Positions 13,492 through 18,301 of a stretch of 37,557 bases of DNA are shown piece after piece. Positions within the stretch are counted from its first letter, which is position 1. Every line of letters begins with the position of its first letter. The position numbers were made by a program, and so were the translations under genes. The notes beneath the pieces were generated by a model. The model made no database searches and had not been told where the DNA came from. It saw only the letters and a list, made by a program, of their open reading frames with translations. This DNA comes from Peterkaempfera griseoplana. GTDB lineage: Bacteria; Actinomycetota; Actinomycetes; Streptomycetales; Streptomycetaceae. The DNA lies in contig NZ_LIQR01000249.1 of assembly GCF_001418575.1 (NCBI RefSeq), positions 1-37,557 of the forward strand, given 5' to 3'.

Positions 13492-15075
13492 TCAGCCGGC
13501 GGCCGGTGCGGGAAGGGTTTCCGGACCGGCCCCGGGGTCGATCGGCAGGGACACCTGGAAGCGGGTGTCACCCGGTTCGGACTGCACCCGGATGTCGCCG
13601 TGGTGCTTGTTGACGACGATCCGGTACGAGATGTCCAGGCCCAGCCCGGTGCCCTCGCCCACCGGTTTGGTGGTGAAGAACGGTTCGAAGATCCGCGGGC
13701 GGATCTCGGGCGGGACACCCGGCCCGGTGTCACCGACCTCGATCAGCAGCCGGTCCTCGTCGTACCGGGTCCGCAGGGTGAGGGTGCCGCTGTCGCCCAT
13801 CGCCCCCAGCGCGTTGTCGATCAGGTTGGTCCACACCTGGTTGAGTTCCGCCCCGTAGGCCAGCAGCTGCGGGGCCGAGCGGTCGTACTCCCTGACCAGA
13901 CGGATCCCCGGCGGGATCTTGGCCTGCAGCATCACCACGGTGGCATCCAGCAGCTCGTGCACATCCACCGTCTGCTGCGGTGCCCGGTCCAGCTGGGAGT
14001 ACTGACGGGCGGCGCCCACCAGGTCGGAGATCCGGGACACCGAGTCCTCGATCTCGCCCATGATCAGCTCGGTGTCGACGCTGTACGCGATCCAGCGCAC
14101 CGCCGACTCGAGATTGTCGGCCCCCACCGACTCGGCGACCGAGGAGAGCCACTCGCCGTCGATGCCGCCGGCGACCAGGGTGGGCGCCAGGTCCCAGCTG
14201 CCGGACACCTTGTGGTCCTCCAGCCACTCCCCGAGCTCGTCCTCGGCGTCGGCCGCGGCCAGCGCGGTCATCGGCTCCGCCGAGGTGGCCCGCTCCACCG
14301 CTGCGTCCTGCAGCTCCACCAGCTCGTGCAGCCGCCGCCCGTCCAGCCGTCCGTCGGCGATCAGGGCGAGCTTGCGCCGCATCCCGGAGATCCGCTCGCG
14401 CAGCGCCGAGGTGGCCCGGACCGCCGCGGCGGCCGGGTTGTTGAGCTCATGGGTGAGCCCCGCGGACAGCGAGCCCAGGGCCACCAGCCGTTCCCGCTCC
14501 CCGAGGATGGTCTGGCTGGCGCGGGCGCCGAAGAACAGGCCCTCCAGCAGATGCAGTCCCATCGGGAACCAGGTGCGGACGGCGGTGGCGAACTCGTCGG
14601 CCGGGAGCACCGCGAAGTCGCAGTCCACGATCGCCCGCAGGGTGTGCGGGTAGACCTGCTCCACCTGGTCGCCGAGATAGGACTGGGTCGCGCCGGCGTA
14701 GACCCCGCGCTGGTCGGTCCGGGACACCTCGATGTCGTCGCCGTGCAGCCGGCGGCTCATCGCCACCGCGCCGGACAGCAGCACGAAGAGGCAGGTGGCG
14801 GGCTCGCCCTCGGAGAACACCGTGGTCCCCGCGGCCCGGTGGTCCACCCGGATCCGCTCGGCGAGCCACTCCAGCTGCTCGTCCTCCAGCCGTTCGAAGA
14901 GGAAGAGGGTGCGCAGCTCAGCGGGGGTCAGCCGCCCGTCCCGGCTCTCGTCCGGGCTCCCCGTGCTCCCGTCCGGGGCGTTCTCGGACTCGTGCTCCTG
15001 CTCGTACACCGCTTCCCCGTCCGCCGCGCCGCCCCTGCCGTTGCCCGCGTTCTCCCTGCCCGCGCTCGCGTTCAC
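13492..15075 (-). CDS. Histidine kinase with N-terminal cyclic-nucleotide-binding-like domain
   Basis: A 527-residue soluble sensor kinase with no membrane segment. Residues about 57-165 form a CRP/cNMP-binding-like beta-roll (LFLFERLEDEQLEWLAERI, GTTVFSEGEPATCLFVLLSG). The phosphoacceptor motif is GSLSAGLTHELNNP (His209), and the ATPase domain has NQVWTNLIDNALGAMGD (N box), DTGPGVP (G1) and GEGTGLGL (G2). It starts with a GTG that overlaps the previous gene's TGA by four bases and has GGAGG inside that gene, so it is translationally coupled to the receiver-flavoprotein. The two almost surely form one signalling pair. Whether the beta-roll binds cAMP, c-di-GMP or nothing is not visible. Confidence 0.9.
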   Translation of the reverse strand: MNASAGRENAGNGRGGAADGEAVYEQEHESENAPDGSTGSPDESRDGRLTPAELRTLFLFERLEDEQLEWLAERIRVDHRAAGTTVFSEGEPATCLFVLLSGAVAMSRRLHGDDIEVSRTDQRGVYAGATQSYLGDQVEQVYPHTLRAIVDCDFAVLPADEFATAVRTWFPMGLHLLEGLFFGARASQTILGERERLVALGSLSAGLTHELNNPAAAAVRATSALRERISGMRRKLALIADGRLDGRRLHELVELQDAAVERATSAEPMTALAAADAEDELGEWLEDHKVSGSWDLAPTLVAGGIDGEWLSSVAESVGADNLESAVRWIAYSVDTELIMGEIEDSVSRISDLVGAARQYSQLDRAPQQTVDVHELLDATVVMLQAKIPPGIRLVREYDRSAPQLLAYGAELNQVWTNLIDNALGAMGDSGTLTLRTRYDEDRLLIEVGDTGPGVPPEIRPRIFEPFFTTKPVGEGTGLGLDISYRIVVNKHHGDIRVQSEPGDTRFQVSLPIDPGAGPETLPAPAAG

Positions 15076-16730
15076 TGCGCCTCCAGATAGCGGTGCACCA
15101 GCGACACGGCCATCGCGCCCTCGCCGACCGCGGACGCCACGCGCTTGACCGAATCGGCGCGTACGTCCCCGGCCGCGAAGACACCCGGCACGCTGGACTC
15201 CAGATGGTAGGGATCGCGGGGCAGCGTCCAGCCCGGCGGCCGGTGTCCGCCGGCCAGCAGATCGGGACCGGTGAGCACAAAACCCCGCGGGTCGCGTGCG
15301 ACCACCCCGGTCAGCCACTCCGTGCGGGGCTCGGCACCGATGAACACGAACAGCCAGGAGCAGTCGACGGTGTGCGTCTCACCGGACCTGGCGTCCCGCA
15401 GCACCACCTGCTCCAGGTGGTCGTCGCCGGACCCGCCCGCCACCTCCGTCCAGGGGTGGACCTCGATGTTCTCGATCGCGTCCAGCTGCTGGATCAGATA
15501 GTGCGACATCGACCTGCGCAGGTCACCGCTGCGGATCAGCAGGTGCACCCGGCGGGCGTGGCGGGAGAAGTGCACCGCGGCCTGTCCGGCCGAGTTGGCC
15601 CCGCCCACGATGTACACCTCCTCGCCGCGGCAGCTGAGGGCCTCCGTGGTGGCGGAGCCGTAGAAGAGGCCCGCGCCCGTGAAGTCCGCGAGTCCCGGTG
15701 CGTCCAGCCGCCGGTAGGACACCCCCGTGGCCAGCACCACCGAGTGCGCCGTGATGGTGCTGCCGTCCCCGAAGCGCAGCACCCGGCCGGCGCCGGCCGC
15801 GTCCAGACCGACGACCTCACGGGTGGAGAGGATCTCGGCGCCGAAGCGCAGCGCCTGCCGCCGGGCCCGGTCGGTGAGCTGGGCGCCGGAGACACCGTCG
15901 GGGAAACCCAGGTAGTTCTCGATCCGGCTGCTCTGACCCGCCTGGCCGCCGGCGGCCTGCCGCTCCACCAGTACCGTCCGCAGGCCCTCGGAGGCGCCGT
16001 ACACCGCGGCCCCCAGCCCCGCCGGACCGGCCCCGACCACCACCAGGTCGTAGAAGTCCGAGGTCGGCCGGGTACTCAGCCCCACATGGGTGGCCAGCTC
16101 GGACTCGGTGGGCGCCACCAGCGACTTGCCGTCCGCCGTGACCACCAGGGGGACATCCTCGGCGGTCAGCCCGGCGGCGGTGAGCAGACTCGCGCCCTCC
16201 GGCTCCTCGGCCTGCAGCCAGCGGTACGGCACCAGGTTGCGGGTGAGGAAGTCCCGTACCGCGAAGGACGGCGCGGACCAGCGGTGGCCCACCACCCGGG
16301 TCTCCGAGACCGCCGGGTCGGGCGCCGAGAGCCAGGCCTCCAGCAGCCCGTCGATCACCGGATAGAGATTCTCCTCGGGCGGGCTCCAGGGCTTCAGCAG
16401 ATAGTGGTCAAGGTCCACCACGTTGATCGCGTCGATGGCCGCGCCGGTGTCCGCGTACGCGGTCAGCAGCACCCGCCTGGCCAGCGGGAAGAGGTCCATG
16501 ACGGCTTCCAGGAACTCGATGCCGTTCATTTGCGGCATCCGGTAGTCGGCGAGCACCAGCGCCAGCTGCTCCCCGCGCAGCTTGATCTCGCGCACCGCGT
16601 CCAGGGCGTCGTCCGCGGAGGCGGCGCGGACCACCCGGTAGCGCTCGCCGTACCGGCGGCGTACATCGCGCGCAACGGCTCGGGAGACCGCCGGGTCGTC
16701 GTCCACGGTGAGGATCGTCGGATTCGCCAT
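15072..16730 (-). CDS. Response-regulator receiver fused to thioredoxin-reductase-like FAD oxidoreductase
   Basis: A 552-residue fusion. Residues 1-125 are a receiver domain with acidic pocket VDDD (10-12), phosphoacceptor Asp62 in LVLADYRMPQMNG, LLTAYAD and LLKPWSPPEE. A middle region (about 145-235) resembles a thioredoxin-like or linker segment (GHRWSAPSFAVRDFLTRNLVPYRW). The C-terminal part is a thioredoxin-reductase-type flavoprotein: YDLVVVGAGPAGLGAAVYGASEG for FAD, VYIVGGANSAGQAAVHFS for NADPH, and VFAAGDVRADSVKRVASAVGEG for the second FAD contact. Where thioredoxin reductases have the CxxC dithiol, this protein has LFYGSATTEAL, so the redox pair is missing. The chosen ATG has GGGGGAC upstream; ATG at 16742 is an alternative. 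It is coupled to the downstream kinase by a four-base overlap. Confidence 0.92.
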   Translation of the reverse strand: MANPTILTVDDDPAVSRAVARDVRRRYGERYRVVRAASADDALDAVREIKLRGEQLALVLADYRMPQMNGIEFLEAVMDLFPLARRVLLTAYADTGAAIDAINVVDLDHYLLKPWSPPEENLYPVIDGLLEAWLSAPDPAVSETRVVGHRWSAPSFAVRDFLTRNLVPYRWLQAEEPEGASLLTAAGLTAEDVPLVVTADGKSLVAPTESELATHVGLSTRPTSDFYDLVVVGAGPAGLGAAVYGASEGLRTVLVERQAAGGQAGQSSRIENYLGFPDGVSGAQLTDRARRQALRFGAEILSTREVVGLDAAGAGRVLRFGDGSTITAHSVVLATGVSYRRLDAPGLADFTGAGLFYGSATTEALSCRGEEVYIVGGANSAGQAAVHFSRHARRVHLLIRSGDLRRSMSHYLIQQLDAIENIEVHPWTEVAGGSGDDHLEQVVLRDARSGETHTVDCSWLFVFIGAEPRTEWLTGVVARDPRGFVLTGPDLLAGGHRPPGWTLPRDPYHLESSVPGVFAAGDVRADSVKRVASAVGEGAMAVSLVHRYLEAQ

Positions 16731-16882: not shown

Positions 16883-18301
16883 GTGACTCCACCCGTCCGC
16901 ACCGTCGCGGACGGTGAGCGCCGGCCGGGTGTCCTCCGTGCCCCGCCGCCCTGTCCCGTCCTGCCGCGCTGCGCCCCGCTCCGCACCTCGGGCGGCGGCG
17001 CCCGGCGCGCTGCACCGGCGCCCGGACCCCCGGCACGGGACCATGCCACGGTGCATCGGAACCCGCCCCAGGAACCGCAACCCGAGCCGGCCCCCGGACC
17101 CGGCGCCGGCCCGTACCGCCGAACCCGGCGCGCCCTCCCGGCCGTCGTCCGGATGACCGCCCGGGACCCGGCCGAGGCCCACCGCTCCACCACCGCGCTG
17201 GAACTGCTCTTCGACCTCTGCTTCGTCGTCGCGGTGGCACAGGCCGGCATCCGTCTGGTCCACGCCCAGACCACCGGGCACCCCGCCCACGGCCTGGCCG
17301 GCTATCTCTCCGTCTTCTTCGCCATCTGGTGGGCCTGGGTGAACTTCTCCTGGTTCGCCTCCGCCTACGACTGCGACGACGTGCCCTACCGGCTCGCCAC
17401 CCTGGTGCAGATCTGCGGCGTCCTGGTGCTGGCCGCCGGCGTCCCCCGCGCCTTCGAGCACGCCGACTACGGGCTGGCGGTGGTCGGCTACCTCATCATG
17501 CGGCTCGTCATGACCGGCCAGTGGCTCAGGGCCGCGCACGGCGAGACCGGACCCGCCCGCACCACCGCACTGCGCTACGCCGCCGGACTGATGGTCATTC
17601 AGGCCGGCTGGGTGGTCCTGCTGCTGCTCCCCGCCGGGGCCTGGACGCCCGGCTTCCTGCTGCTGGTGGTCTGCGAGCTCTCACTGCCCGGGTACGCCGA
17701 ACACGCCCGGCGGACTCCCTGGCACCCCCACCACATCGCCGAGCGCTACGGCGCGTTCACCATCATCACGCTCGGCGAGAGCGTGGCGGCGGCCACGGTG
17801 GCGGTGCAGTCCGCCGTCGACGAGACCTCCGAGCTGGCGGAACTGCTGCCGATCGCCGCCGGCGGCCTGCTGATCGTCTTCGCCGCCTACTGGATCTACT
17901 TCGCCGTGCCCATCCACGAGCATCTCGCCTCCAACCGCCAGTCGTTCCTGTGGGGGTACGGCCACTACCTGGTCTTCGGCTCCGCCGCCGCGATCGGCGC
18001 CGGGATCGAGGTGGCCGTGGAGCAGACCGTGGGCAGGGCCCACATCCCGGCGACCGAGGCGGCCGCGGCCCTGACCGTGCCCACCGCCGTCTTCCTGCTC
18101 TCCGCCTGGCTGCTGCACGCGCGGCACTTCAAGGTCGTGCTCTCCCAGCAGCTGGTGCTGCCCGTGAGCGCGCTTCTCGTTCTGGCCTGCACCTTCGCCG
18201 GACGCCACGCGGCGCCCCTGGCCGGGCTGGTGGCCGCAGCCGCGGTCGCCGCCGGGGTCGTCCTCGCCGCCGGTACCCCCGAGCACCGCACCGCTCGATG
18301 A
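16883..18301 (+). CDS. LtrA family membrane protein
   Basis: A low temperature requirement protein A family member, an integral membrane protein of unclear function named from Listeria. After a Pro/Arg-rich N-terminal stretch (residues 1-90) the family block begins: DPAEAHRSTTALELLFDLCFVVAVAQAGI, then about twelve hydrophobic segments including FFAIWWAWVNFSWFASAYD and RYGAFTIITLGESVAAA, a hallmark of the family. The GTG at 16883 has GGAG five bases upstream and is chosen for that reason; ATG at 17154 (MTARDPAEAHR) begins exactly at the conserved region and is a real alternative with no clear ribosome site. It is divergent from the receiver-flavoprotein gene. Confidence 0.88.
   Translation: MTPPVRTVADGERRPGVLRAPPPCPVLPRCAPLRTSGGGARRAAPAPGPPARDHATVHRNPPQEPQPEPAPGPGAGPYRRTRRALPAVVRMTARDPAEAHRSTTALELLFDLCFVVAVAQAGIRLVHAQTTGHPAHGLAGYLSVFFAIWWAWVNFSWFASAYDCDDVPYRLATLVQICGVLVLAAGVPRAFEHADYGLAVVGYLIMRLVMTGQWLRAAHGETGPARTTALRYAAGLMVIQAGWVVLLLLPAGAWTPGFLLLVVCELSLPGYAEHARRTPWHPHHIAERYGAFTIITLGESVAAATVAVQSAVDETSELAELLPIAAGGLLIVFAAYWIYFAVPIHEHLASNRQSFLWGYGHYLVFGSAAAIGAGIEVAVEQTVGRAHIPATEAAAALTVPTAVFLLSAWLLHARHFKVVLSQQLVLPVSALLVLACTFAGRHAAPLAGLVAAAAVAAGVVLAAGTPEHRTAR

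Follow-up and report, generated by a model that had tools for sequence, protein, structure and literature searches.

The 37,557-nucleotide stretch of Peterkaempfera griseoplana DNA analyzed here (contig NZ_LIQR01000249.1 of assembly GCF_001418575.1; hereafter the window) encodes a predicted two-component pair, comprising a flavoprotein with an N-terminal receiver (P0003) and a soluble histidine kinase (P0004). Both are genuine genes, and their minus-strand location is a detail absent from the initial annotation of this DNA. The flavoprotein gene starts with an ATG codon at a methionine shared by its homologues, and its product begins with MANPTILTVDDD; the kinase gene starts with GTG. As had been noted before, the two genes overlap by four base pairs (15072-15075), the last four bases of the P0003 gene being the start of the P0004 gene. 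A scan for promoters and terminators in this region found none. The maximum 19-residue hydropathy values are 1.46 and 1.26 for P0003 and P0004, and the absence of a membrane-like segment from either protein agrees with the cytosolic location proposed earlier. The features of the pair are as follows, with residue numbers referring to the encoded proteins:

15072-16730, minus strand: gene for the receiver - glutaredoxin-like (Grx-like) - thioredoxin reductase-like (TrxR-like) flavoprotein P0003, 552 aa (stop-free translation, Pfam matches)
16356-16730, minus strand: receiver domain, residues 1-125 (Response_reg match), with the phospho-acceptor Asp62 at 16547-16545
16077-16304, minus strand: glutaredoxin/mycoredoxin-like domain, residues 143-218, in which WSAPS replaces CPxC (profile match, collinearity with Grx-TrxR fusions, structure model)
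15075-16064, minus strand: TrxR-like FAD/NAD(P)H domain, residues 223-552 (Pyr_redox_2; full-length TIGR01292 match; TrxR fold match, Z 32)
15630-15665, minus strand: lost-CxxC site, F356-Y-G-S-A-T-T-E-A-L-S-C367 (alignment to the canonical TrxR of the genome)
15576-15605, minus strand: NAD(P)H loop GGANSAGQAA, residues 376-385 (family alignment)
13492-15075, minus strand: gene for the soluble histidine kinase P0004, 527 aa, with a sensor of cyclic nucleotide-binding (CNB) fold (translation, Pfam matches, structure model)
14602-14928, minus strand: CRP/CNB-like sensor domain, residues 50-158 (cNMP_binding), whose phosphate-binding cassette lacks Glu and Arg
14449-14451, minus strand: predicted phospho-acceptor His209 (LTHELNNP), invariant in 41 homologues
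14122-14355, minus strand: helical insert of about 80 residues (about 241-318) between the two helices of the dimerization and histidine phosphotransfer (DHp) domain (structure model)
13531-13980, minus strand: HATPase (catalytic, CA) domain, residues 366-515 (HATPase_c), with N, G1, F, and G2 boxes whose residues are invariant in 41 homologues

The domain order of P0003 is receiver - Grx-like - TrxR-like, and Pfam matches two of the three domains, namely Response_reg at residues 6-118 (E 6.5e-13) and Pyr_redox_2 at residues 227-538 (E 9.6e-34). The receiver residues D10, D11, D12, D62, T90, and K113 are invariant in 43 close homologues, among them the acidic pair and the phosphorylatable Asp62 recognized in the initial annotation. 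In the TrxR-like domain, the FAD motif G233xG235xxG238 is present, with G233, G235, P236, and G238 nearly invariant in the family, and the C-terminal GD motif G521-D522 is invariant. The NAD(P)H loop is retained throughout the dithiol-less family described below (G376, N379, A381, and Q383 in 215/215 members, S380 in 214/215). Among the arginines that hold the 2'-phosphate in TrxR (HRRxxxR), R400 is kept in 129 of 131 sequences, while the second position is mostly Gly and the third is variable. The earlier statement that both nucleotide motifs are intact holds for GxGxxG and GGANSAGQAA, but not for the three 2'-phosphate arginines, of which only R400 is conserved in the family. At the redox-active site, P0003 reads FYGSATTEALSC (SATT) where the thioredoxin reductase of the same genome (L003) has CATC (CATCDG). 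The only cysteines of P0003 are Cys367 and Cys457, hence there is no CxxC elsewhere in the protein and the reported loss of this motif is real. P0003 scores 212 bits against the TrxR equivalog TIGR01292, under the cut-off of 343, and stays below the cut-offs of TIGR03140 (AhpF; 148.8 vs. 502.9 bits) and TIGR04018 (the bacillithiol disulfide reductase YpdA/Bdr; 54.9 vs. 339.9 bits). Since the CxxC that defines a thioredoxin reductase is absent, we assign P0003 by its sequence to the REC-TrxR response regulators, in which a receiver with a phospho-acceptor Asp and Thr/Lys switch residues is fused to a TrxR-like domain.

To follow the dithiol loss through the family, we aligned 218 members encoded on GTDB contigs, in whole genomes, or in plasmid records. 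Both the TrxR-site and the Grx-site CxxC are gone in 215 of these 218 sequences, whereas the three members that keep both dithiols (L129, L226, and L227) are plain Grx-TrxR fusions without a receiver. A receiver-like N-terminus occurs in 189 rows, every one of them dithiol-less; thus, a receiver-bearing homologue with an intact CxxC, which would have argued against the earlier proposal, was looked for and none was found in the family. The vacated site has a motif of its own, Y-G-[SA]-x-x-[TS]-E-A, with Y357 in 214, G358 in 198, E363 in 190, and A364 in 198 of the 215 dithiol-less members. This conservation in 215 relatives excludes chance, and the loss of CxxC is a trait conserved across the family rather than a local mutation; a dead domain would not be expected to need Y357, G358, E363, and A364 at the lost site. 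Two apparent CxxC motifs were discounted, as CPAC in L136 lies upstream of the likely start and CLNC in L131 lies outside the active sites. Cys367 is present in 155 of the 215 dithiol-less members and Cys457 in 16; a replacement disulfide between them was rejected, the two residues co-occurring in 14 rows only. Ten members have a module with no cysteine at all, so thiol chemistry cannot be essential in those proteins.

In a tree of 70 rows, which contains two outgroup rows only, a well supported branch separates the dithiol-less forms from L129 and L003. The simplest history would be that a Grx-TrxR fusion lost both dithiols once and then joined receivers and CNB domains. Two separate origins of the CNB fusion are drawn by this tree, yet a single clade is not rejected (approximately unbiased test, p 0.22), and we did not retain them. 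The family is common, with genes in 30 of 149 sampled Actinomycetota genomes and further ones on cyanobacterial, Deinococcus, and Burkholderiales replicons; their annotations read thioredoxin reductase or simply FAD-dependent oxidoreductase.

A third domain of P0003, located at residues about 140-220, was overlooked in the initial annotation and has no Pfam match in P0003. We built a profile (A3) from 31 diverse homologous stretches; its best PDB match is the mycoredoxin Rv3198.1 (2lqo, E 5.4e-8), above glutathione S-transferases and other glutaredoxins, and seven of the 31 members match the Pfam Glutaredoxin family directly (best E 1.4e-4). The domain is collinear with the CPDC-bearing Grx-TrxR fusions L129, L226, and L227. 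For instance, L129 has an ordinary glutaredoxin with CPDC at the same position (E 3.5e-10) and is 36% identical to P0003 over residues 141-550. The topology in the structure model is beta-alpha-beta-alpha-beta-beta-alpha. Both homology and fold are thus those of a glutaredoxin, but the CPxC/CxxC active site is found in none of the 215 dithiol-less members.

An AlphaFold2 (AF2) model of P0003, built from 43 homologues, has a predicted local distance difference test score (pLDDT) of 82. Its TrxR part superimposes closely on thioredoxin reductases in the flavin-reducing conformation (5mh4, Z 32.5, root-mean-square deviation 2.1; 1f6m, 2.5) and poorly on those in the flavin-oxidising conformation (5mjk, 7.4; 1trb, 7.4; 2a87, also about 7 Å). 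The modelled flavin-reducing geometry may suit the reduction of FAD by NAD(P)H in a protein with no disulfide to offer the flavin, which we take as a weak indication. The best full-length Foldseek match of the model is AhpF.

In P0004, Pfam recognizes HATPase_c at residues 410-513 (E 2.2e-25), cNMP_binding (E 1.4e-9), and weakly HisKA at residues 200-230, and the H, N, G1, F, and G2 boxes of histidine kinases are all present. The HisKA match is confined to these residues because the helical insert splits the DHp helices; in the AF2 model, insert helices 246-265, 271-287, 293-302, and 307-317 are flanked by the long helices 171-240 and 319-363. A fold search with the whole kinase model (predicted TM-score 0.37) gave a useful match for the catalytic part only. 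The CRP-like, cyclic nucleotide-type sensor described earlier does have the CNB fold, as seen from the PF00027 match and a beta-barrel in the model, but the canonical contact residues for cyclic nucleotides are gone: A129 occupies the place of the expected Glu in 38 of 41 homologues and the Arg is not conserved, while the more distant kinases L104, L109, and L113 retain the cassette GE...PR. Without the cassette Glu and Arg, sensing of cAMP or cGMP by P0004 is doubtful, and binding of these ligands by the sensor in the usual way appears unlikely.

Kinase adjacency was counted as well. A CNB-type kinase is present in all 80 of the closest database loci, immediately downstream of the flavoprotein gene in 79 and about 4 kb off in L078. 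In the wider set of 186 scored receiver copies, an adjacent kinase accompanies 149 and is missing beside 14 of the copies with Asp62, whereas none of the 23 copies that lack Asp62 has one. This association would be compatible with a phosphotransfer pair. Among the receiver-like domains that have neither the phospho-acceptor Asp nor an adjacent kinase are L101, L103, L106, L107, L111, L119, L120, L123, L125, L126, and L128. The number of module copies reaches six in some genomes (G028 and G042).

We tentatively propose that P0003 is a phosphorylation-gated, dithiol-free NAD(P)H:acceptor flavoenzyme that serves as the output of a cytosolic two-component system with P0004; thioredoxin is probably not where the family delivers its electrons. 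The soluble kinase would sense a ligand or partner through its CNB-fold domain and would phosphorylate Asp62 of the receiver; phosphorylation would shift the receiver and the degenerate Grx-like domain relative to the TrxR-like core, and this shift may turn the NAD(P)H-to-FAD hydride transfer on or off. Electrons would then exit the flavin directly to an external acceptor, such as a protein, a quinone, O2, or a small molecule. Such an exit would resemble that of the TrxR-like ferredoxin/flavodoxin NADP+ reductases (FNR1/FNR2, YumC type), which have the TrxR fold without CxxC (PMC10294844). P0003 likewise has the TrxR fold, FAD and NAD(P)H sites, and the CxxC loss; unlike these reductases, it is nearer to TrxR in sequence and adds receiver and Grx-like domains. 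The idea of a two-component pair with a dithiol-free flavoprotein output, put forward in the initial annotation, is supported by the kinase in every one of the nearest loci and by the family-wide loss of CxxC; the NADPH oxidase, electron-transfer, and redox-sensing activities suggested along with it are putative roles. Slightly more tentatively, the family may represent a portable dithiol-free NAD(P)H/flavin module, derived from a Grx-TrxR fusion and equipped with a new site motif, which is wired either via kinase and receiver or via a fused CNB domain and has a UBP zinc-finger partner, so that phosphorylation would control electron flow or flavin signalling and not DNA binding.

Several observations weigh against the gated flavoenzyme. 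The association between Asp62 and the kinase is largely one clade split, and a tree-based paired test, with one supported pair, adds nothing to it. Two of the three NADPH-phosphate arginines are gone. The TrxR conformation that AF2 picks may have nothing to do with function, and a single model was considered. The scheme of a simple oxidoreductase leaves no room for the recurrent UBP zinc-finger neighbour. Finally, there is one published assay of ATII-TrxR (552 aa), by its description a CNB-TrxR relative, in which both thioredoxin and DTNB are reported to be reduced at the expense of NADPH or NADH; Cys376-Cys467 is designated there as a redox pair (PMC6544261). This assay collides with the premise of the initial annotation that TrxR needs its dithiol.

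The ATII-TrxR data also feed the view that P0003 is still a thioredoxin or disulfide reductase, acting via Cys367, alone or with Cys457, or straight from the flavin. By residue numbers only, the Cys376-Cys467 spacing of 91 matches the Cys367-Cys457 spacing of 90; C367 lies five residues past the lost pair and is widely kept (155/215), and the CNB form of the module has trxA a short way upstream in L133-L135 and in this genome (L004). However, C457 is found in 16 of 215 members, both cysteines in 14, and ten modules are cysteine-free; the genome has an ordinary TrxR with CATC (L003), and in the accessible portion of PMC6544261 we found no cysteine mutants, nor is carry-over of host TrxR excluded there. 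We therefore consider a surviving disulfide reductase improbable. The main rival to the flavoenzyme is a redox or NAD(P)H sensor acting through a zinc-finger partner: the flavin would report the NAD(P)H state, the receiver or CNB input would tune it, and a partner, the prime candidate being the small UBP zinc-finger protein, would read the conformation. UBP zinc-finger genes recur in both branches (33/217 loci), even by dead-receiver, kinase-less copies, the substituted site corresponds to the surface by which TrxR meets thioredoxin, and two interchangeable input domains are consistent with a switch. In contrast, the zinc-finger gene is not in the window and most loci lack such a neighbour, while conservation of the FAD and NAD(P)H loops stays at the full level of an enzyme, and we find the sensor rather unlikely, if less so than a disulfide reductase.

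Loss of both dithiols, together with that of the receiver Asp in 23 of the 186 scored copies, could also be read as the sign of a pseudo-enzyme scaffold, in which both domains are catalytically dead and form only a dimerisation or regulatory body; given that conservation across wide divergence is 90-100% for residues of the FAD, NAD(P)H, and substituted sites, this is highly improbable. An annotation artefact (frameshift, chimaera, mis-assembly, or chance open reading frames) might come to mind for a draft assembly of 802 contigs, but it is refuted by full-length collinear homologues in 80 loci at 69-83% identity, and its probability is negligible. If the gated flavoenzyme proves correct, the name thioredoxin reductase would be wrong for the whole family, and bacteria would have a two-component system with direct control over redox chemistry. 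As the two dithiols were lost together and the replacement motif is conserved, a single purified protein would suffice to test the question.

The receiver-TrxR architecture itself is not new, as the REC-thioredoxin reductase was termed 'Mycobacterium-like' in a census of archaeal two-component systems (Galperin et al., PMC5847659); the REC-TrxR passages of that census make no mention of a missing CxxC, a Grx-like domain, a CNB kinase, or zinc-finger and NAD kinase neighbours. A literature search that left most subscription journals outside its reach turned up nothing on the loss of both dithiols, the hidden Grx domain, the CNB-kinase pairing, or the neighbours, and no match to the NCBI product names of the family. 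The CNB 'thioredoxin-disulfide reductases' (ATII-TrxR and Cupriavidus relatives, PMC6544261; L004/L002 of this genome) have the same CxxC-less module, as seen in L094, L131, L133-L135, and L002; they differ from P0003 in that the CNB domain is fused directly, with no kinase and receiver route, and in the thioredoxin reduction reported for them. The nearest dithiol-bearing relatives found are L129, L226, and L227, which share the Grx-TrxR domain order with P0003 at 33-36% identity but have intact CPDC and CATC motifs and lack receiver and CNB domains. AhpF likewise has a thioredoxin-fold domain N-terminal to a TrxR core; unlike P0003, it has dithiols in both parts, two thioredoxin folds, and no receiver.

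The UBP zinc-finger gene, which occurs by the module in receiver and CNB branches alike, is an unexplained functional lead. These neighbours lie mostly on the same strand, overlapping the module start or directly following the kinase, and also adjoin copies with a dead receiver and without a kinase (L111 and L213); annotated examples are found in L133-L135 and L137, and the two genes overlap in S. fungicidicus and on a Nocardia plasmid. The two copies in this genome are located elsewhere than in the window. In eukaryotes, the UBP zinc finger binds ubiquitin tails. An association of prokaryotic UBP fingers with TrxR may have been noted by Burroughs and Aravind around 2011, though our literature search did not find such an account. 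The genome also encodes a CNB - Grx-like - TrxR-like paralogue without CxxC, split at contig ends between L004 (982-1863) and L002 (2-988) on contigs C109 and C340, with trxA and a UBP zinc-finger gene ahead of it. In L133, L134, and L135, from Nocardia, Rhodococcus, and Streptomyces plasmids, the gene order is clpB - trxA - UBP zinc finger - CNB-TrxR with cbpM upstream, a heat-shock-like mobile cluster.

Another recurrent neighbour, seen in 14 loci, is an NAD kinase gene, whose placement takes at least two forms: it precedes the pair in Dactylosporangium and Actinoplanes-type loci (by 24 bp in L085) and follows the histidine kinase gene in Microbispora and Planotetraspora. The NAD kinase family was confirmed for L073. 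These neighbours point to NADP(H), although the 14 loci represent two or three lineages and not independent events, and no NAD kinase gene is present in the window. In the Actinoplanes-type loci, the gene just upstream of the receiver-flavoprotein gene encodes a fusion of NAD kinase with a GNAT-type acetyltransferase domain (L073:4440-5690). One further gene stands next to the pair in the window:

16883-18301, plus strand: LtrA-family gene, divergent from the pair

LtrA was tried as a functional partner and rejected; we treat it as a coincidence because just 3 of 134 loci have it near the pair, namely the window and the loci L089 from Nostoc and L091 from Deinococcus. In Streptosporangiaceae, a CBS-domain gene is divergent from the receiver-flavoprotein gene (L011:5057-5926 and L067:5197-5922, the latter with a BON domain too).

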